Origin: Rickettsiales bacterium
GTDB taxonomy: Bacteria > Pseudomonadota > Alphaproteobacteria > Rickettsiales > SXRF01
Direction of reading: 5' to 3'
Length of the DNA: 64,000 nucleotides
Assembly (NCBI GenBank): GCA_025464625.1
Contig: JAOAUZ010000003.1
Location: 1 to 64,000 of the forward strand
Shown: piece by piece, positions 5,580 through 62,482 of the stretch
Numbering within the stretch: the stretch's first letter is position 1
Layout: every line of letters begins with the position of its first letter
Notes under the pieces: generated by a model
Databases searched by the model: none
What the model was told of the DNA's origin: nothing
Seen by the model: only the letters and a program-made list of their open reading frames with translations
Translations under genes and position numbers: made by a program

Positions 5580-5644
5580 GCTATTTATACAAAATCCAAA
5601 AATGCGGTTCTGTATTTTTAATATTTTTAAAGTAAGAGGTTCTC

Positions 5645-8600
5645 ATGGCGCAAGCTCAAAATTCGCAACTTTCGTTCACCGCGCGTAAGCGTATTCGCAA
5701 AAGTTTTGGCAGAATTGAGACTATAACCTCCATGCCGAATTTGATCGAGGTTCAGAAGAACTCTTATGATCAATTTCTGCAGATAAATATACCTGCGGAG
5801 AAGCGTACTAATACTGGCTTGCACGCGGTATTCAAATCGGTATTTCCGATTAAAGATTACACAGAAACTTCCACTCTTGAGTTCGTGCGGTTTAATTTTG
5901 ATGCGCCGAAATATGATGTTGATGAATGCCGTTCGCGCGGTATAAATTCCTCCGCTCCTTTGCGCGTTACTCTGCGTTTGATTGTGTGGATTGTTGATGA
6001 AGATACAGGTGCGCGTGAAATAAAAGACATCAAAGAACAAGATGTTTATATGGGCGATATTCCGCTGATGACTGATAACGGTACGTTCATCATCAACGGC
6101 ACTGAGCGCGTTATTGTATCGCAGATGCACCGCTCACCAGGTGTATTCTTTGACCATGACAAAGGCAAAACCCACAGCTCTGGTAAATTCCTCTATTCCT
6201 GCCGTATTATTCCATATCGTGGTTCATGGCTGGATTTTGAATTTGATGCTAAAGATTTGGTGAATGCGCGTATTGACCGTCGTCGTAAAGTGCCAGTTAC
6301 TACCTTCCTGCGCGCTATGGGCATGGATAACAGCAGCATCTTAGATACATTCTATACTCGTACTATTTATAAAAAATTAAAAACTGGTTGGTCGGCAAAA
6401 TTCAATCCTGAACAATATCGTGGTGTAAAACTCGCTTACGATTTGGTTGATGCAAAAACTGGAAAAGTATTTGCTGAAGCGGGCAAAAAAATGAATGTAC
6501 GCACTGCCAAAAAATTTGCTGAAGATGGTCTCAAAGAATATCTGGTAACTGACGAGCAGTTTATCGGCAAATATATAGCAAGCGATATTGTTAATCCGCA
6601 AACTGGTGAAATCTATGTTGAAGGCGGTGAAGAAGTAACCGCTGCAGCAGTTGCTGTGCTTGAAGAAGCTGGGGCAAAAGATGTTGCGATTCTTGACATA
6701 GATCATATCAATGTTGGCGCATATATACGCAATACTTTGATTGCTGATAAAAATCTTACCAAAGAAGATGCGCTGATTGATATTTACCGCGTAATGCGCC
6801 CTGGTGAACCAACTACTGTTGAAGCAGCAGAAGCACTCTTCAATTCTTTGTTTTTTGAGGCAGATAGGTATGATTTATCAGCCGTTGGTCGCGTAAAAAT
6901 GAATGCGCGCCTTAACCTGAATATATCTGATGAAGTTGGAACTCTTACTAAAGATGATATCATCGGTTCGGTGAAATTATTGGTTGGTCTTAAAGACGGA
7001 ATCGGCGAAATTGATGATATTGATCATCTTGGCAATCGTCGTGTGCGCTCTGTTGGTGAGTTGATGGAAAATCAATTCCGCATTGGGTTATTGCGTATGG
7101 AGCGTTCAATTATTGAGCGTATGTCAAGCGTTGATATTGATACAGTAATGCCGCATGACCTCGTGAATGCGAAGCCAGTAGCTGCTGCTATCCGTGAATT
7201 TTTTGGTTCAAGCCAGCTTTCACAATTTATGGATCAAACCAATCCTCTTTCAGAAATTACTCATAAACGTCGCCTATCAGCCCTTGGACCTGGTGGTCTT
7301 ACCCGTGAACGTGCTGGTTTTGAAGTGCGTGACGTACATCCAACCCATTATGGTCGTATCTGCCCGATTGAAACTCCTGAAGGACCAAATATCGGTCTTA
7401 TCAATTCAATGGCAACTTACGCTCGCGTCAACAAATATGGTTTTATTGAAAGCCCATATCGCAAAGTGGTGAATCAACGTGTAACTGACGAAGTTATTTA
7501 TTTGTCAGCGATTGAAGAAGGCAAATACACCATCGCTCAGGCTAATTCAGCAATGGATGATAAAAACAAATTCACAGGTGATTTGATTTCTTGCCGTCGT
7601 AATGGTGATTTCGTTTTGTCTGCGCCAGATCAGATTGATTATATTGACGTTGCACCAAAACAATTAGTTTCGGTTGCAGCCGCGCTTATTCCCTTCCTTG
7701 AAAATGATGATGCGAACCGCGCGCTGATGGGTTCAAATATGCAACGCCAAGCTGTTCCTTTGCTTCGTTCTGAAGCACCAATGGTTGGCACTGGTATGGA
7801 AGAAATAGTAGCTAAAGATTCTGGTGTTACTACTGTTGCTCGTCGTAGCGGTGTGGTGGATCAGGTTGATGCTACTCGTATCGTTATTCGCTCTAGTGAG
7901 CCGTCAGAAGATGGCGCACCAGGTGTGGATATTTATAACCTCATTAAATTTACTCGTTCTAACCAGAATACCTGCCTCAATCAGCGTCCACTTATTACAG
8001 TTGGTGATGTGGTGAAGGCTGGTGATATTATCGCTGATGGTCCTTCAACTGATTTGGGTGAACTGGCTCTTGGTCGTAACGTGCTGGTAGCGTTTATGCC
8101 GTGGAATGGTTACAATTTCGAAGATTCTATTTTGATTTCTGAGCGCATTGTATCAGATGACGTATTTACCTCAATTCATATTGAAGAATTTGAAGTAATG
8201 GCGCGTGATACCAAGCTTGGTGCGGAGGAAATTACCCGTGATATTCCAAATATCGGTGAGGAAGCACTGCGCAATCTCGACGAAATCGGGGTGGTGCATA
8301 TTGGCGCGGAAGTAAAACCAGGAGATATTCTAGTTGGTAAAGTTACGCCAAAATCTGAATCGCCAATGACTTCAGAAGAAAAGCTCCTTCGTGCGATTTT
8401 CGGCGAAAAAGCTTCTGATGTTCGTGATTCTTCTCTTCGCCTTCCTCCCGGTGTGGCAGGAACTATCGTTGGTGTGCGTATTTTCAGCCGTCGTGGTATC
8501 GAAAAAGACGAACGTGCGCTTTCTATTGAAAAAGCAGAAATTGAACGCCTCGCAAAAGATAGAGACGATGAACGCGGAATTATTGAGCGTTTCGTTTACT

Positions 8601-9769
8601 CTCGCATGCGTGAATTATTGATTGGTAAAAAAGCGACTTCTGGACCAAAAAATTTCAAAGTTGGTACGGAAATTAACGAACAAACTTTCAGCGATTACAG
8701 CAAAGGTCAGTTGTGGCAGTTTGCGGTAAAAGATAATGCGGTAATGAACGAAGTTGAGGGCTTGAAAAAGCAGCTTGATTCCGCTCTTGCCCGTATCAAT
8801 CATAAATTTGAAGAAAAAGTTGGCAAGGTGCAGGCTGGTGATGATTTAATGCCGGGCGTTCTTAAAATGGTGAAAGTGTTTGTGGCTGTTAAACGCAAGC
8901 TGCAACCTGGTGATAAAATGGCTGGTCGTCACGGTAATAAAGGGGTGGTGTCAAAAATCGTTCCGATTGAAGATATGCCATATCTTGAAGATGGTACTCA
9001 TGCTGATATTATCTTGAATCCTCTCGGCGTACCATCGCGTATGAACGTGGGACAGATTTTGGAAACCCATCTTGGCTGGGCATCAGCTGGTATTGGTAAG
9101 CAAATCCGCTCCATGCTTGAAGAAGTGCAAGAGCAAAACAGCAAAGCTGCTGCGGTGAAAAAACTTAGAGATTTCTTAGGTGAAATGTATGAGGATAAAG
9201 AGCTGCAGAAATCTATCGGCAAAATGTCCGATAAAGAAGTGATGGAGCTTGCAGGAAATCTGAAAAAAGGTGTGCCGTTTGCTACACCTGTATTTGATGG
9301 TGCTAAGGAAGAAGATATTGTTCATTGGTTAGGTAAGGCTGGTCTTGATTCTTCTGGTCAGGTGCAGCTTTATGATGGTCGTACGGGGGATGCGTTTGAT
9401 CGCAAAACCACTGTTGGTTATCTGTATATCCTTAAACTTCACCATTTGGTTGATGATAAAATCCATGCTCGTTCAATTGGGCCATACTCGCTTGTTACGC
9501 AGCAGCCGCTTGGTGGTAAATCGCAATTCGGTGGACAGCGTTTCGGGGAAATGGAGTGCTGGGCATTGCAGGCTTATGGTGCTGCTTACACCTTGCAGGA
9601 AATGCTCACTGTTAAATCTGATGACGTGGCGGGACGTAGCAAAATCTACGAATCTATCGTGCGTGGTGATAACAGCTTTGAATCTGGTATTCCTGAATCT
9701 TTCCATGTTATGGTGAAAGAATTGCGGAGTCTTGGTTTGAATGTAGAACTAATTGAAAAAGAAGCGTGA
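5645..9769 (+). CDS. rpoB: DNA-directed RNA polymerase subunit beta
   Basis: Catalytic core subunit, 1374 residues, full length for alphaproteobacteria. The start [19 protein letters not shown] is preceded by AAGAGG. The rifampicin pocket reads [19 protein letters not shown] followed by [14 protein letters not shown]. The positions that usually mutate to resistance (Q, D, H, S) are wild type; the change NNP to TNP is unusual but is not a classic resistance site. [11 protein letters not shown] and the C-terminal [19 protein letters not shown] clamp segments are intact. rpoC follows after 65 nt. Confidence 0.98.
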
Positions 9770-9825
9770 TTCGAAAATCAGAAATAAAGATACTGAAATC
9801 GGAAAAATAGACCACTGGTCACTAG

Positions 9826-14016
<4,191 letters not shown>

Positions 14017-46753: not shown

Positions 46754-47269
46754 ATGAATATAATATCTGCAATTTCTATAATGCCAGTGCGTTGTTTGCT
46801 ATTTCTTAGTGTATTGTTCAGCCTTTTGATGTTGGCTACGGCACTGGTTGGACAGTATGGCTTTGGGCTGCATCCTTGCAACTTGTGCATTTATCAGCGT
46901 ATTCCCTACGCTGCTATTGTGATATTAGGGATTTTTGGAGCTTTTTTAGTCAAAAAATGGCGATGGAGATATGTAGTTGCGGTTGTTTGTACCTTATTAT
47001 TCTTGGTAGACGCGGGAATTGCTGGCTATCATACTGGTGTAGAAACTGGGGTGTTTAAAGGGCCAACCGCTTGCTCCAGTGATGGGAAAACAGGGCAAAC
47101 TCTTGAGGAATTGCGGGCAGCAATCCTTAATGCCCCACTGGTTACTTGTGAGCAGGCAATGGTTTATGTACTCGGTCTGTCAATGGCTGCATGGAATATG
47201 ATTGCAGCGACCACAGCCTTCTTTGTATCGTCGTTTGTATTATTCAAAAATCGTAAGATAAAACTGTAA
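46754..47269 (+). CDS. dsbB: DsbB-family disulfide bond formation protein
   Basis: Inner-membrane oxidoreductase passing electrons from DsbA to quinone. Four transmembrane helices are visible. The first periplasmic loop has the redox pair PCNLCIYQR; the second loop has the other cysteines in PTACSS and VTCEQA. The start is uncertain: in-frame ATGs at 46664, 46733, 46754 and 46781 exist and none has a clear Shine-Dalgarno site. 46754 or 46781 gives a normal length of about 171 or 162 residues. Confidence 0.85.
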   Translation: MNIISAISIMPVRCLLFLSVLFSLLMLATALVGQYGFGLHPCNLCIYQRIPYAAIVILGIFGAFLVKKWRWRYVVAVVCTLLFLVDAGIAGYHTGVETGVFKGPTACSSDGKTGQTLEELRAAILNAPLVTCEQAMVYVLGLSMAAWNMIAATTAFFVSSFVLFKNRKIKL

Positions 47270-56600: not shown

Positions 56601-58334
56601 ATGGAAAAACTAAAAAAACTTCGGGAATTGATGGCAAGGCATGGGATATCCGCATATCTCCAACCTGTGCATGATGAATGGATGAGTGAATATCCGCCAG
56701 CTTGCAACAGGCGGGTGGAGTGGCTTACAGGTTTTTCTGGTTCGGCAGGGCTTGCGGTTATACTTGCTGACAAAGCCGCGCTGTTTGTTGATGGGCGTTA
56801 CACTTTGCAGGCGAGTAAACAAGTGGGCGCTGGATATGAGGTGTTAAATAGTGCCGATGTAACCTCCCAAAGCTGGTTGGAAAATAATTTATCAAACGGT
56901 GCAAAAGTTGGCTATGATCCTAAACTTTACACCAAGGCGATGTTGGATAAATTTAATAAATTTTCTTTAGTTCCGACGGAAAATCTGGTTGATGAATTAT
57001 GGGCTGAACGTCCCGCTAAACCTGCCACTGAGATATTTGCGCATGATGTTATTTATAGCGGTGAAACTTCCGAGTCAAAACGTTTGCGTGTTGCGGAATC
57101 TATAAAAAAAGCAGGGGCAGATGCGCTGTTTCTCGGTGCGCCAGAAAGTATGAACTGGCTGCTTAATATTCGCGCGCGCGACACAGAAAATACCCCGTTA
57201 TGTTTGGCATTTGCAATTATTGATGCGCAGGGAAAGGCAAAGTTGTTTGTGGATTCCACGCGCCTCGACGAAAAATTGAAACAACATTTAGGAGGTGATG
57301 TAAAAATCTGTGCGCCAGATTCTTTGGCTGAAGAACTGCGCTCTTTCTCACAAAAAACTATGCTTGTTGATAAACAAACAACAACTATTTTTATTACTGA
57401 TTTATGTTCCGCTAGTGGAATAAAGTTATTGGAAGGTACAGATCCATGTGCTTTATTTAAGGCTATAAAAAACCCTGTGGAAATTGCGGGAATTCGCAAG
57501 GCACATATTCGTGATGGCGCAGCAGTGGCAAGACTACTTTGCTGGCTGGAAGGGCAGGAAAATATTACAGAATTAGAGGTGGTAGATAAATTATTATTGT
57601 TACGGATGCAGAATGATTTATTTTTTGAGCCGAGTTTTGATACTATCGCGGGAAGTGGTGAACATGGTGCAATTGTTCATTATCGGGCGACGCAGGAGAG
57701 CAACCGCATTTTGCAAAAAGGCGAGCTATTTTTGCTGGATTCTGGCGGGCAGTATTTTGATGGCACAACTGATATAACCCGCACGGTGGCAATTGGCGGA
57801 CCAACCGCTGAACATAAAACCAGATTCACGCAGGTGCTTAAAGGTCACATCGCGCTGGCTATGGTGCAGTTTCCTGAAGGTACAGCAGGGTCACAGCTTG
57901 ATGCTCTGGCGCGCCAATATCTCTGGCAAGATGGGCTGGATTATGATCACGGAACAGGGCATGGTGTTGGTTGTTTCCTTGGCGTGCATGAAGGTCCGCA
58001 GCGTATAGGTAAGCGGGGAGGGGACGCACCACTCACTGTTGGTATGGTGGTATCCAACGAGCCTGGTTATTATAAAGCTGGCGAGTATGGAATACGCATA
58101 GAAAACCTAGTGACTGTAGTTGAAAAAACAACAGGTGAAAACGGCAAGAAGTTTTTAGGGTTTGAAACTCTAACTTGCGCTCCGATAGATTTGTGCTTAG
58201 TTGATACAAAAATGCTCACAGATTCAGAAGAACAATGGTTGAATAACTATCATGAATGGGTGAAAACAGAAATATCTCCGCAACTTGAAGATAATGAAAA
58301 AGAATGGTTGGAGCAGCATTGCTCATTATTATAA
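56601..58334 (+). CDS. Aminopeptidase P family (M24B) metallopeptidase
   Basis: Removes N-terminal residues before proline. About 577 residues, the long three-domain type also found in eukaryotes (two creatinase-like N-terminal domains plus the catalytic domain). Metal ligands are present: the Asp pair in LLDSGGQYFDGTTDITRTV, the His in GTGHGVGCFLGVHEGP, and the Glu residues in VVSNEPGYY and GIRIENLV. The ATG at 56601 has GGGAAA upstream; an ATG at 56589 at the edge of the palindrome is the other option. Confidence 0.93.
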   Translation: MEKLKKLRELMARHGISAYLQPVHDEWMSEYPPACNRRVEWLTGFSGSAGLAVILADKAALFVDGRYTLQASKQVGAGYEVLNSADVTSQSWLENNLSNGAKVGYDPKLYTKAMLDKFNKFSLVPTENLVDELWAERPAKPATEIFAHDVIYSGETSESKRLRVAESIKKAGADALFLGAPESMNWLLNIRARDTENTPLCLAFAIIDAQGKAKLFVDSTRLDEKLKQHLGGDVKICAPDSLAEELRSFSQKTMLVDKQTTTIFITDLCSASGIKLLEGTDPCALFKAIKNPVEIAGIRKAHIRDGAAVARLLCWLEGQENITELEVVDKLLLLRMQNDLFFEPSFDTIAGSGEHGAIVHYRATQESNRILQKGELFLLDSGGQYFDGTTDITRTVAIGGPTAEHKTRFTQVLKGHIALAMVQFPEGTAGSQLDALARQYLWQDGLDYDHGTGHGVGCFLGVHEGPQRIGKRGGDAPLTVGMVVSNEPGYYKAGEYGIRIENLVTVVEKTTGENGKKFLGFETLTCAPIDLCLVDTKMLTDSEEQWLNNYHEWVKTEISPQLEDNEKEWLEQHCSLL

Positions 58335-58367
58335 CCGTGTAAATTGTATCACTTTTTTTAAGTACAC

Positions 58368-58396
58368 TTGCTATTGTAAAATAAAAGATATATAAT
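58368..58396 (+). promoter_or_regulatory. Strong promoter of the copper operon
   Basis: TTGCTA (58368-58373) and consensus TATAAT (58391-58396) are 17 nt apart. The expected transcription start, about 7 nt past the -10 box, falls at the ATG (58403) of the first gene, so the message may be leaderless. The 17-nt spacing argues against a CueR/MerR-type promoter (19-20 nt). Confidence 0.7.
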
Positions 58397-58402
58397 GCGC
58401 GC

Positions 58403-58783
58403 ATGAAAATCTTCGTTAGCATATTAGTGGTTCTGGCACTCGTTATGACAACGAGCTTTTCTTCCATGTCTCATGCGATGATGCCTCATAATTCTATGAA
58501 GGTAGAACAGACGAAAGCCTCTGACGCTGGTGATTGCCACAAACATGCTAAAGCCGAGCAGTCTGGTAAAACTGCACAAAACGACAAAGATTCTGGCGAG
58601 TGCTGTGATAAAAACATCTGCAAGTGTGTTGGTAGTGTCTGCCATAATGGTCTATCCAAGATATTTAATAATGGAAATGGCTCGTTGTTTGGTGTTGCTT
58701 CCAGCAGATCTGGTTTTACCTTCACCAATGATGTGGTTAAGTCCGCTCTTTCCAATCGTCTAAAACGCCCTCCCAAAGCCTGA
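58403..58783 (+). CDS. Cys/His-rich exported protein, CopL-like, first gene of copper operon
   Basis: 126 residues with a Sec signal peptide ending near MSHAMM. The mature part has a cluster of possible metal ligands: C45-H-K-H, C67, C68, C73, C75, C80 and H81. The C-terminal third (GSLFGVASSRSGFTFTNDVVKSALSNRLKRPPKA) resembles the tail of CopL-type proteins that precede copAB in Xanthomonas and others and affect copper-dependent expression. No Shine-Dalgarno site is visible upstream. Role as copper sensor/leader or periplasmic binder is inferred from position and cysteines. Confidence 0.68.
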   Translation: MKIFVSILVVLALVMTTSFSSMSHAMMPHNSMKVEQTKASDAGDCHKHAKAEQSGKTAQNDKDSGECCDKNICKCVGSVCHNGLSKIFNNGNGSLFGVASSRSGFTFTNDVVKSALSNRLKRPPKA

Positions 58784-58806
58784 GTCCTTTTTGTTTTTTG
58801 AACGTG

Positions 58807-58824
58807 ACGCGCCTAGTTGCGCGT
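58807..58824 (+). other. Stem-loop in the copL-copA gap
   Basis: ACGCGC-CTAGTT-GCGCGT is a perfect 6-bp GC-rich hairpin in the 75-nt gap before copA, following a T-rich run after the first stop codon. It could be an attenuator or an mRNA processing or stability element. Confidence 0.4.
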
Positions 58825-58858
58825 AGTGTGTATTTTCAATGTAAATAAAGGATTAGTT

Positions 58859-60481
58859 ATGCGAATTCGTCTCTTTGAGATGATGGCGTTGCTCATGGTG
58901 GGGTTTCTAGCCACTCCTGCGCATGCCAAAACATCAGAATACAACCTAACGATTGAACGCTTGCCCGTGAACATCACGGGAACGCCTATAGAAAAGATTA
59001 CTGTGAATGGGAGTATACCCGCCCCCACGCTTCGCTTTACCGAAGGTGATGAAGCTGTAATCCATGTCACTAATAAAATGAGTGAACCAACCTCTATCCA
59101 CTGGCACGGATTATTGCTACCCGATGAAATGGATGGTGTAACAGGGTTTGGAGGATATAAGGCGATAGAGCCAAACAACACGTTTACATATCGATTCCCG
59201 ATCAAACAAACTGGTACATATTGGTATCACTCCCACACAGGTGGTCAGGAACAAGATGGTTTGTATGGCTCGATCATCACCTCACCTAAAGGCAAAGACC
59301 TGATTGCAGCGGATCGTGATTATGTGGTGGTTCTGTCTGATTTTTCGGAGGAACATTCCAGTGATATAATGGCAAACCTCAAAATGTCCTCGGATTATTA
59401 CGCCAATGCACGGCTAACGCTGGGTGACTTTTTCAATGATGTAAAGGATCGTGGTTTTGGCAAGGCATGGAAGGATTCAAAGGATTGGGGCGACATGCGG
59501 ATGATGCGTACTGATCTTGCCGATGTTACTGGCTATACTTTCCTTGTGAACGGAAAATCACCAGAGAAAAACTGGACGGGACTATTCAAACTCGGTGAAA
59601 AGGTGCGTCTACGATTTATCAATGCTTCTGCCATGTCATTTTTTGATGTTCGGATTAATGGATTGAAAATGAACGTAGTGCAGGCAGACGGGCAGAATGT
59701 CGAACCAGTGGCGGTGGATGAATTTCGTTTTGCACCTGCGGAAACCTACGATGTGATTGTTACGCCGAAGGAAGATAAGCCCTACACCATCGCTGCTGAA
59801 CCGATTGACCGTACAGGCTTTGCTATTGGTACGCTGGCAACCGCCGAAGGCATGAAGGGTGAAATACCTGCCCCGCGTCCACGAGCGTTGCTTTCTATGG
59901 GCGATATGAACATGGCGGAGATGATGAAAGACGATCCCGACATGGAGATGACCACCGCCGATATGATTAGTGGCTGGGCAAAAACGGGAACGCCTGAAGG
60001 TCAGAAAGCACTTTCCTATGCTGACCTGCGTTATGCAGGCGTGCAGAAAGACCAGCGCAAGCCAGAACGAACAATTGATGTGCGCTTGGGCGGTAATATG
60101 GAGCGGTATATCTGGACAATTAACGAGAAGAAATTCTCGGATGCCGAACCAATCCGCCTGAAATATGGTGAACGTGTGCGATTGAACTTCACTAACGAAA
60201 CAATGATGGCGCATCCGATGCATCTGCATGGAATGTTCGTGCAGCTAGAAAACGGTCAGCCAGCGGCAAAACTTCCGAATAAACACACGGTGATTGTACC
60301 GCCTGGTGGTTCTTATTCCGTGCTGGTAACGGCAGATGAAATTGGTGAATGGGCGTTCCATTGCCATCTGCTCTACCACATGGCCAGCGGTATGATGCGA
60401 CAGGTCGTTGTTGCCAAGCTTGATGCGGCGGATATGCCAGCCACAAAAACCAAAACTAGCGGAGGTCATCATGCACAATAA
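58859..60481 (+). CDS. copA: Multicopper oxidase CopA (copper resistance)
   Basis: Periplasmic oxidase that converts Cu(I) to less toxic Cu(II). 540 residues from the ATG at 58859 with AAAGGA upstream; the longer frame has no better start. The signal peptide MRIRLFEMMALLMVGFLATPAHA lacks the twin-arginine motif usual for CopA, so it appears Sec-exported. All four copper motifs are intact: HWHG, YWYHSHTGG, HPMHLHGMF and FHCHLLYHMASGMM (type 1 Cys). A Met-rich loop GDMNMAEMMKDDPDMEM is a likely Cu(I) site. It overlaps copB by 11 bp. Confidence 0.93.
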   Translation: MRIRLFEMMALLMVGFLATPAHAKTSEYNLTIERLPVNITGTPIEKITVNGSIPAPTLRFTEGDEAVIHVTNKMSEPTSIHWHGLLLPDEMDGVTGFGGYKAIEPNNTFTYRFPIKQTGTYWYHSHTGGQEQDGLYGSIITSPKGKDLIAADRDYVVVLSDFSEEHSSDIMANLKMSSDYYANARLTLGDFFNDVKDRGFGKAWKDSKDWGDMRMMRTDLADVTGYTFLVNGKSPEKNWTGLFKLGEKVRLRFINASAMSFFDVRINGLKMNVVQADGQNVEPVAVDEFRFAPAETYDVIVTPKEDKPYTIAAEPIDRTGFAIGTLATAEGMKGEIPAPRPRALLSMGDMNMAEMMKDDPDMEMTTADMISGWAKTGTPEGQKALSYADLRYAGVQKDQRKPERTIDVRLGGNMERYIWTINEKKFSDAEPIRLKYGERVRLNFTNETMMAHPMHLHGMFVQLENGQPAAKLPNKHTVIVPPGGSYSVLVTADEIGEWAFHCHLLYHMASGMMRQVVVAKLDAADMPATKTKTSGGHHAQ

Positions 60482-61205
60482 GCACTTATTTATGGCATTT
60501 ATCTTTGCTACCGTATTCGCGCAGCCTGCTCTTGCAGCGGATCATTCTGCCCACGCAGATATGGCAGCAGAACATGGCGGTGGAATCTTCCACATGTTTC
60601 GGCTGGAAGCAGATGTAGGCAGCAACACTGATGGAACGCCATTACAGAGTTGGGATTTAGACGGATGGATCGGCACGGATGAAAACAAACTTTGGATAAA
60701 ATCAGAGGGTGAGCGTGCCGAGAACAAATTGGAAAGCACTGAGTTTTGGGTACTCTACAGCCGCAATGTTTCTACGTTCTGGGATGCACAGGCAGGTATT
60801 CGTTATGATACCAAACCTGAATCTACGGTATACCTGACGTTTGGGATTAACGGGCTTGCACCATACTGGTTTGAAACCGAAGCGCATCTTTTTATTAGTG
60901 AACATGGTGATGTTACGGCACGGTTGCGGCAGGAAAACGACCTGCTGCTTACTCAGCAACTGATTTTGCAGCCCTATGTTGAAGTGGGTCTCTCCGCACA
61001 AGATGTCCACGAACAGGATATTGGTGCAGGTGTGACAGACGGAAAGATAGGTTTGCAAACGCGTTACGAATTTACTCGAAAATTTGCGCCTTACGCTGAT
61101 GTTCATTATGGTCGAAAATTTGGTGAAAACTCATCTATAGCTAAAGAAAATGGTGAGGATAACGATGAGCTAGTTGGCTCTGTCGGTCTGCGGCTTATGT
61201 TTTAA
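60471..61205 (+). CDS. copB: Copper resistance outer-membrane protein CopB
   Basis: Predicted outer-membrane beta-barrel acting with CopA. The ATG at 60471 has GGAGG five bases upstream and gives 244 residues with a signal peptide ending PALAADHS. The His-rich start of the mature protein (DHSAHADMAAEHGGG) is much shorter than the Met/His region of Pseudomonas CopB. Core motifs include LQSWDLDGWIGTDENKLWIKSEGER, FWDAQAGIRYDTKP and the terminal LVGSVGLRLMF with the aromatic final residue of outer-membrane barrels. Confidence 0.9.
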   Translation: MHNKHLFMAFIFATVFAQPALAADHSAHADMAAEHGGGIFHMFRLEADVGSNTDGTPLQSWDLDGWIGTDENKLWIKSEGERAENKLESTEFWVLYSRNVSTFWDAQAGIRYDTKPESTVYLTFGINGLAPYWFETEAHLFISEHGDVTARLRQENDLLLTQQLILQPYVEVGLSAQDVHEQDIGAGVTDGKIGLQTRYEFTRKFAPYADVHYGRKFGENSSIAKENGEDNDELVGSVGLRLMF

Positions 61206-61229
61206 TCAACTAATCAAAAGGGAAATACT

Positions 61230-61895
61230 ATGAAAAAACTTTTACTGACTACCGCACTAATTCTGGCAACCACGCCTGTATTCGCGGCTGAATTCACCAT
61301 CAAGGAAGTCACTGACTATGATGCCAAGAAACAAAACTTCTTCTCACCCGATAAATTGACTATTCAAGTTGGTGATACCGTTACATTTGAAAATGTGCAG
61401 GATGAACCGCATCAGGTGATGTTTATCAGCGTTCCCAAAGGTGTGGATGAAATGATTATGTCTACCATGCACGAAAAGAAAGGCGACAAATTTACTTACA
61501 CTTTTACCGTGCCTGGAACCTACAAGTTCCATTGTCACCCGCATGAAGCACTAGGTATGGATGGTGTGTTAATCGTGGGGCAACCATCCAAAGCTAGTGA
61601 AACCAAAAATGTGGATCACCACAAACTCGCCAAAAAACTGGAAAATGGTGACGCGACTCCAGTAAGTGGCGGTGTTGTTGCTACAGGCAAGGTTGTGAGC
61701 GCGGATGCAGCAAAGCGCACCATAAAAATCAAGCATGACCCAATTAAATCGTTGGGTTGGCCAGTGATGACGATGACGTTCACTGTCGATAATGGTGTTG
61801 ATCTTTCCAGATACAAGGAAGGAGATGCCGTGTCCTTCACGCTGAAGCCAGCGGGGAAGGATGATTATGCGATTTCGACTATCAAAAAGGATTAA
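61230..61895 (+). CDS. Cupredoxin-CusF fusion, periplasmic copper-binding protein
   Basis: 221 residues with a signal peptide ending VFAAEF. Domain 1 (about residues 22-117) is a plastocyanin/azurin-like cupredoxin with type 1 ligands His61, Cys102, His105 and Met110. Domain 2 (about residues 145-221) matches CusF: His169, Trp177, Met180 and Met182 have exactly the H-x7-W-x2-M-x-M spacing of the CusF Cu(I) site. A lysine-rich linker joins them. One protein thus holds both a redox-active Cu site and a Cu(I) chaperone site. It could pass Cu(I) to CopA or accept electrons from it. Confidence 0.88.
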   Translation: MKKLLLTTALILATTPVFAAEFTIKEVTDYDAKKQNFFSPDKLTIQVGDTVTFENVQDEPHQVMFISVPKGVDEMIMSTMHEKKGDKFTYTFTVPGTYKFHCHPHEALGMDGVLIVGQPSKASETKNVDHHKLAKKLENGDATPVSGGVVATGKVVSADAAKRTIKIKHDPIKSLGWPVMTMTFTVDNGVDLSRYKEGDAVSFTLKPAGKDDYAISTIKKD

Positions 61896-61917
61896 CCACC
61901 AACCGAAGGAGATTGTT

Positions 61918-62268
61918 ATGTTTAAGAAGTTATTACCTATCGTTCTTATGATTTTTGTTGCTGCCTGCTCAAATACGCAAGGTGGATCGCAATCTAGCAT
62001 GGACATGAAAATGCCGTGCTGTGAAAAATGCGAATACTGTAAAGACGGAAAATGCGCCGAGTGTTGTAAAGATGGTGAGTGCAAATGTTGCAAGGACGGC
62101 ATGTGCAAGATGTGCATGGGTAAAATGGGAGGCATGTCTTCCATGAAAGAAGGGATGCAATGTCCAATGATGAAAGGTAGCATGGATAACATGAAGAAAG
62201 AATCTACGAAGATTCAGAATCTTAAATATGTTGGTGATGCAGAACATAAAGAACACCACGCACAATAA
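61918..62268 (+). CDS. Cysteine-rich metal-binding lipoprotein
   Basis: 116 residues with AAGGAGA before the ATG. The lipobox FVAAC places lipidated Cys17 after a short signal. Residues 34-82 hold 12 more cysteines, including three CKDGxC units (C41-C46, C50-C55, C58-C63) flanked by CC and CxxC pairs, then a Met-rich stretch (MCMGKMGGMSSMKEGMQCPMMKGSM) and a His-rich end. It looks like a membrane-tethered metallothionein-like copper trap. I know no named family for it. It is last gene of the copper operon, 22 nt after the fusion gene. Confidence 0.75.
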   Translation: MFKKLLPIVLMIFVAACSNTQGGSQSSMDMKMPCCEKCEYCKDGKCAECCKDGECKCCKDGMCKMCMGKMGGMSSMKEGMQCPMMKGSMDNMKKESTKIQNLKYVGDAEHKEHHAQ

Positions 62269-62317
62269 GAAGCAGTTCTAACACTACAGAGAATTGGTTC
62301 TGCACTAAAGGTTGCTT

Positions 62318-62348
62318 CACCTTGCTCACTATAATAGTGAGCAAGGTG
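62318..62348 (+). terminator. Strong hairpin ending the copper operon
   Basis: CACCTTGCTCACTA-TAA-TAGTGAGCAAGGTG is a perfect 14-bp stem with a 3-nt loop, 50 nt after the last copper gene. Only a weak T-rich stretch follows (TTGCAATTTGATAT), so it may be a terminator or a 3'-end stabiliser. Confidence 0.7.
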
Positions 62349-62406
62349 GTTGCAATTTGATATATTTAACGGTAACTAACCTAGCTTCAGTCTGTAATTG
62401 TATATT

Positions 62407-62482
62407 GCCGCTTTAGCTCAGTTGGTAGAGCACTTCATTCGTAATGAAGGGGTCGGGTGTTCGAGTCACCTAAGCGGCACCA
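62407..62482 (+). tRNA. trnT: tRNA-Thr (anticodon CGT)
   Basis: A 76-nt tRNA. Acceptor GCCGCTT pairs with AAGCGGC, the D-arm has AGCTCAGTTGGTAGAGC, the anticodon stem-loop CTTCA-TTCGTAA-TGAAG gives CGT (reads ACG), and the T-loop is TTCGAGT. CCA is encoded. Confidence 0.96.

Follow-up and report, generated by a model that had tools for sequence, protein, structure and literature searches.

The window, by which we mean the whole stretch of 64,000 nucleotides analysed here, carries on its forward strand a five-gene operon with the order cutF/copL-like, copA, copB, cupredoxin/CusF and metallothionein-like lipoprotein. The first gene (58403..58783, 126 aa) is an upstream ORF of the CutF/CruR/CopL type and likely a copper-responsive leader, as judged from a signal peptide, a CC....C motif, a 48-residue spacer and a C-terminal KRPPKA, together with a sub-threshold match to NCBIfam CopL_fam NF033807 (34 bits, cut-off 40); it has no Pfam hit at E-values up to 1, DUF2946 included. 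It is followed by genes for the multicopper oxidase CopA (58850..60481; TIGR01480, 657 bits, above the cut-off), the copper resistance protein CopB (60471..61205; PF05275, 239 bits, above the cut-off) and an exported cupredoxin fused to a CusF domain (61230..61895; PF00127 and PF11604, both above the cut-off). The preliminary description of this DNA had raised an association of the lipoprotein with copA and copB, and in the window the lipoprotein gene indeed ends an operon that holds both (Pfam, NCBIfam). The single P-ATPase of this genome that scores above the copper-ATPase cut-off is encoded on another contig.

The fifth gene (61918..62268), an ORF read directly from the sequence, encodes a protein of 116 aa. 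The start codon stands six bases downstream of a ribosome-binding site, AAGGAG (61906..61911), and an 11-bp perfect inverted repeat found by eye (62319..62347) is a candidate transcript end, all on the forward strand. The protein begins with a signal peptide closed by the lipobox cysteine, Cys17 (61918..61968; lipobox VAAC, residues 14-17), which makes it a bacterial lipoprotein by the usual definition, its acylation being predicted. Past the lipobox lie a cysteine block, C34-C66 (62017..62115, read directly and from the alignment), with three CKDGxC units (C41-C46, C50-C55 and C58-C63), and a Met-rich segment, M62-M92, that includes Cys82 (62101..62193). Lipobox, coordinates and reading frame agree with the preliminary description, and several of its details had to be corrected: the cysteines, lipobox included, number 14 and not 13; the three CKDGxC units are present, evenly spaced only to a near approximation, as their starts lie 9 and then 8 residues apart; and the tail is Met-rich as described (14 Met past the lipobox) without being His-rich (3 His in the whole protein, counted by eye). 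With 14 Cys in 116 aa and CxC, CxxC and CC spacing, this protein has the small size and the Cys content that the general definition of a metallothionein asks for. It matches no named prokaryotic metallothionein family in Pfam or NCBIfam (E-values up to 1) and no family in PHROGs, in keeping with the earlier remark that no named family has this layout (zero matches in all three).

Extent and conservation of the family

Within the window's order (343 genomes), a search with the single protein matched 11 genomes at E 0.01, three of them judged to be chance, profile A1 matched 12 at E 0.001, and the broader profile A2 matched 14 at E 0.001, one of which (G142, locus L063) was dropped; a scan of genome contigs confirmed 7 loci among 52 candidate stretches. 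The distribution across the order is patchy, at 12 to 14 of 343 genomes. Profile A1 found the window's own genome only, both in a sample of the class (1 of 385 genomes) and in a sample of the phylum (1 of 398). Profile A4 matched two of 152 genomes of the class, the window's own and that of L072 (G388), which belongs to another order (E 1.7e-4). L072 is a frame for a small lipoprotein rich in Cys, with two CCQKM units and a weak profile match; it is not counted as a member, and hints that the type may extend beyond the window's order. Three contigs of IMG/VR carry the gene (L032, L033, L037), and tblastn with the lipoprotein found nothing at E 0.01 in either 72,556 plasmid records or 50,697 phage records. 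The operon DNA matched 3,126 plasmid records, none with 80% query coverage; the 20 matches listed cover 12-16% of the operon query, in the copA part.

The family as delimited here has 18 distinct members, the window's own and 17 relatives (L002, which equals L003, L004, L005, L006, L007, L008, L015, which equals L022, L021, L028, L029, L030, L032, L033, L037, L062, L065 and L066). L002 and L003 were merged for their identical lipoproteins; the genomes are placed in different families, and a recent transfer or a mis-binned contig may account for the identity. Candidates set aside are L016, judged a chance match, with stops in frame; L017 and L018, likewise judged chance, both inside longer unrelated frames; and the already mentioned L063, a small lipoprotein in whose surroundings neither a leader nor a metal gene was seen. 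For the distant L030, L062, L065 and L066 a shared ancestry is less certain, because they were matched by a profile rich in Cys and Met.

Past the lipobox the cysteines number 18 in L021, 17 in L002 and L015, 15 in L004, L005, L006, L032, L033 and L037, 13 in the window, 9 in L007, L030, L062 and L066, 8 in L008, L028 and L029, which represent a Met-richer subtype, and 4 in L065. The lipoprotein of L002 looks like a join of the standard and the Met-richer styles. L065 (1501-1878, reverse strand) encodes a Met-rich lipoprotein with a family-like tail, possibly a Met-type counterpart in an RND island. The Cys block of L007 lacks 51 nt (17 residues) relative to that of L004; in the best placement as a single deletion, which leaves 11 other differences, a 13-nt direct repeat lies at its bounds, which argues that units of the block can be lost by recombination.

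Residues A16 and C17 are invariant in 15 of 15 aligned members, as is C82, and the lipobox can also be read in L062, L065 and L066. Selection was assessed on a gap-free alignment of residues 1-70 of eight members (window, L002, L004, L005, L006, L032, L033, L037). The pS values are 0.48-0.93, with synonymous sites near or at saturation, pN and pairwise dN are 0.03-0.10, and dN/dS is 0.02-0.09 in the 20 of 28 pairs having a finite dS. Thirteen of the 14 Cys columns hold Cys in all eight members; the other one, column 40, has Cys in seven and Tyr in the window copy only, which has thus lost one family Cys. Most Cys codons alternate between TGC and TGT while the residue stays Cys. By this sequence evidence the lipoprotein gene is real and under strong purifying selection. 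It is conservation, not Cys density, that lifts the gene call above chance: density alone was rejected as proof of a gene, because a false frame of the window, likewise free of stops, is just as dense (12 Cys within 40 codons); it lies within a 635-aa ORF, out of frame with it.

Genomic neighbours, leaders and the identity of the metal

Homologues lying mostly away from metal genes would, according to the preliminary description, have counted against it. This is not what is seen: metal-resistance or copper-sensing genes adjoin 16 of the 17 relatives; the remaining one, L033, starts at a contig edge, its upstream side being out of view. The succession copA, copB, cupredoxin/CusF and lipoprotein gene is found in the window, L002, L008, L029/L057 and L037 and, from copB onward, in the short locus L028. 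Islands with RND, MerR, P-ATPase or CDF genes adjoin L004 (Pfam, NCBIfam) and L006, L007 and L032 (tblastn with L004 proteins). L065 is accompanied by the terminal part of an RND gene and by two more genes that the L004 island also has (tblastn), L005 by a MerR gene and an HMA/MauE protein nearby, and L021 by genes for a cupredoxin, FTR1 and a TonB receptor in its vicinity, besides a leader. For four relatives (L022, L030, L062, L066) a leader is the only such neighbour identified. Between the cupredoxin/CusF and lipoprotein genes of L002 there is a 115-aa exported-looking ORF (5589-5936) with weak TRASH/YHS matches.

The identity of the metal is the main doubt, and the gene content of some islands argues for divalent metals. 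A MerR gene is located just upstream or near in L004, L006, L007 and L032, and the Cys pattern of the regulators in L004, L006 and L032 is presumably ZntR/CadR-like; CDF genes are present in L002, L004 and L032. Because of these regulators and CDF genes, a broader soft-metal role can be argued for the islands of L004, L006, L032 and L002. Extended to the whole family, the protein would be a general soft-metal lipoprotein (Cd, Pb, Zn, Ag, Hg, Cu) of multi-metal resistance islands, with copper as one client. Such a role would suit the CusA/CzcA-type RND pump and the MerR with a CPxxxxxSCP tail that adjoin L004 and L006, the other RND-type pump, CDF gene and MerR of the same type at L032, and the CDF, ArsR-type regulator and LspA genes at L004. 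However, the P-ATPases beside the gene in L002, L004 and L006 hold CPC, YN and MxxSS, a combination that we take to be the Cu(I) P1B-1 signature, five loci have a CutF-type leader alone before the gene, and four have a full cop operon behind the leader, all of which speaks for copper; we consider the general soft-metal role unlikely. Within the metal island of L004 that also holds the lipoprotein gene, the LspA (lipoprotein signal peptidase) gene comes directly after that of the CDF pump (9216-10314).

The operons with CopA/CopB or with pumps in many relatives would also be compatible with a role in copper delivery, the protein passing Cu(I) on, as a relay or chaperone, to the CopA oxidase, to CopB or to an RND pump instead of storing it, and a lipid anchor could position the lipoprotein near CopB. 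On the other hand, a cupredoxin/CusF protein is already part of the operon, and a Cys complement that ranges from 4 to 18 past the lipobox, with repeat units deleted, fits capacity better than a defined docking site; a relay seems to us distinctly improbable.

CruR and CutF leaders are described as having a signal peptide, then a Cys motif and, some 45 residues farther on, a RAPP or proline motif at the C-terminus, and as acting in cis on the next gene (PMC9426467, PMC9973294); arrest by CruR has been reported in vitro (PMC12992588), and CutF is also described in PMC8456105. The first gene of the window's operon has this layout: it is a small ORF at the head of a copper operon, with a signal-like N-terminus and with a spacer of close to 45 residues between its Cys motif and a PP motif at the C-terminus. 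Cys motif, spacer and PP end are shared with the CutF/CruR/CopL (DUF2946-like) proteins, a likeness that concerns the leader and not the lipoprotein. The window and the loci then collected were scanned for frames 70-259 residues long that contain two or more Cys and end in this way; of the 8 distinct tails obtained, 7 are leaders and one is an evident false frame in L046. The spacing from CC....C to RPP is 42-48 residues in all seven leaders scored (48 in the window), and their tails read KRPP or ERPP. The leader of L066 ends in ERPPKQASWV and that of L062 in TPPPKQA, without Arg; both have a CxxC 39 residues ahead of the residue preceding PP.

Leaders head four cop operons that carry the lipoprotein gene (window, L002, L008, L057). 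In five loci (L021, L022, L030, L062, L066) a leader stands directly before the lipoprotein gene alone, at gaps of 52, 43, 44, 59 and 44 nt, with no close co-directional gene after it. These leader-lipoprotein pairs provide the best genetic evidence that the lipoprotein may be a copper-response protein. Expression raised by copper (CutF-like) would be more sensible for a sponge than expression lowered by it (CruR-like). Folding of three leader-type loci (z -1.48, -0.11 and -0.05) lent no support to a CutF-style stem-loop that would cover the beginning of the lipoprotein gene. The downstream genes of CutF/CruR leaders, as given in PMC9426467 and PMC9973294, encode pumps, oxidases, TonB receptors and chaperones, and the word 'metallothionein' is absent from the main text of both.

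The genomic site of the operon differs within the genus. A comparison of window positions 58334-62407 with L056 and L058 showed that the tRNA-Thr gene downstream of the operon (62407..62482, forward strand) directly follows pepP in the same-genus genome G242, with no cop operon between; pepP, tRNA-Thr, tRNA-Lys, usg and yaaA are all present there, and the cop operon of G242 is located elsewhere on that contig. In G241, pepP is followed by an opposite-strand 1145-aa KAP-ATPase-like ORF and, farther on, by a recombinase-like ORF (by eye). The window's CopA shares 90.6% identity with its counterpart in L002, whose genome is placed in another family, and 86.6% with that of G242, with the neighbouring aminopeptidase at 65-70% identity within the genus. 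In several loci, islands with the lipoprotein gene border on phage lysis or tail genes or on repressor or integrase-like ORFs. A phage lysozyme gene and DUF2793 adjoin the lipoprotein gene in L032, all or part of these phage genes recur in L002, L005, L007 and L033 (tblastn), and L008 and L037 have repressor or integrase-like ORFs (by eye); the window has no phage gene beside the operon. Taken as sequence evidence, this suggests that the metal islands may have moved by prophage-linked transfer.

Thiol redox state, predicted structure and known systems

A thiol-based copper trap had been called unusual for the oxidising periplasm. The window's genome encodes a DsbA-family protein with a ScsC N-terminal domain hit, DsbB (inside the window, 46790-47224) and a 578-aa full-length DsbD with its N-terminal, membrane and thioredoxin parts, so that, to judge from these genes, both oxidation and reduction of periplasmic thiols would be possible. 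The puzzle is softened because DsbD and the ScsC-domain protein are encoded besides DsbB. The number of Cys past the lipobox is odd in 13 of the 18 members, the window included, which leaves such a chain with at least one Cys that has no partner within it; disulfides may form between chains.

The predicted periplasmic side and the presence of DsbA-family and DsbB genes would also accord with a disulfide-bonded or redox-buffering lipoprotein, or with an envelope sensor of copper/redox stress such as NlpE, metal binding being incidental in either case. The odd Cys number, the repeated CxxC, CC and CxC spacing without a predicted fold, and the strong link to metal genes all weigh against this alternative, which we regard as highly improbable.

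AlphaFold, run with a shallow alignment of 10 rows, predicts no fold for the lipoprotein (mean pLDDT 51.7, pTM 0.26). Besides the signal peptide it gives only short low-confidence helices and no Cys-lined four-helix bundle of the Csp kind, as far as such low confidence allows. The absence of a predicted fold would be expected for an apo-metallothionein. A search of solved structures returned only chance matches to BRCA1 (E 0.21 or worse).

Among known systems, SmtA and MymT are likewise small and Cys-rich, with CxC, CxxC and CC spacing and a role in metal resistance; unlike them, the window protein has a signal peptide, a lipobox and a Met-rich tail, and leaves the metallothionein models of Pfam and NCBIfam unmatched. 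Copper storage proteins of the Csp1 type are exported, and thiol storage of many Cu(I), the function proposed here, is what links the Csps to the window protein; the latter differs in that no fold is predicted for it and its lipoprotein signal lacks a twin arginine. The Gram-positive CopL lipoprotein and NosL are lipid-anchored copper proteins. SilE/PcoE and CopM-type proteins are Met/His-rich periplasmic proteins that have been proposed to act as disordered metal sponges near pumps; the block of the window lipoprotein is, by contrast, thiol-based, and L065, nearly all Met, bridges both styles. Bacterial metallothioneins are drawn in the cytosol in PMC7558416, where the Csps are described as rigid four-helix bundles already before copper binding and NosL as a folded protein with one Cu(I) bound. 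The literature searched, most subscription journals lying outside its reach, yielded no report of a metallothionein that is periplasmic or lipidated.

A proposed copper sponge of the periplasm

The handling of periplasmic copper is usually ascribed to oxidation, Met/His proteins and efflux. We propose, with a probability of roughly 0.6, that the lipoprotein is a copper-induced, lipid-anchored, metallothionein-like Cu(I)-thiolate sponge of the periplasm, and that it probably takes up surplus copper in the envelope. This reading as a Cu(I) sponge is drawn from a lipoprotein rich in thiols and thioethers, with no predicted fold, that is encoded among copper genes. The protein would be exported by the Sec route, then acylated at Cys17 and anchored on the periplasm-facing leaflet of a membrane, perhaps the outer one, in view of the Ser at position +2. 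The Cys block, taken to be disordered, would bind several Cu(I), a presumed stoichiometry, as thiolate clusters, around which the Met tail would form an outer shell of weaker binding, and the Cu(I) would stay there pending its oxidation by CopA or its removal by the cupredoxin/CusF protein and pumps. Expression would track copper via the CutF/CruR-type leader ORF that heads the operon. Against this reading weigh the patchy occurrence within the order, the loss of Cys40 from the window copy, the DsbB and DsbA-family genes, by which oxidation is possible, the neighbours of divalent-metal type in some islands, the sub-threshold CopL match of the leader and the negative result of the stem-loop folding.

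A wider picture is offered tentatively, at somewhat less than even odds. It is one of a lineage-specific family of Cu(I) metallothioneins, anchored to a membrane and active in the oxidising periplasm. A copper-sensing nascent-chain leader would induce them, with the metallothionein as its sole target in some genomes; the number of repeats would vary through recombination, and prophages would serve as carriers.

What is new here is the likeness of the operon's first gene to CutF/CruR-type leaders and the pairing of such a leader with the lipoprotein gene alone; the general kind of protein, a metallothionein, is already known, and no new mechanism is claimed. If the proposed reading is true, there would be a copper storage layer outside the inner membrane, under the control of a copper-sensing leader ORF, which would pose the question of how the thiols of a lipoprotein stay reduced, and metallothioneins would be a new kind of target for CutF/CruR leaders.
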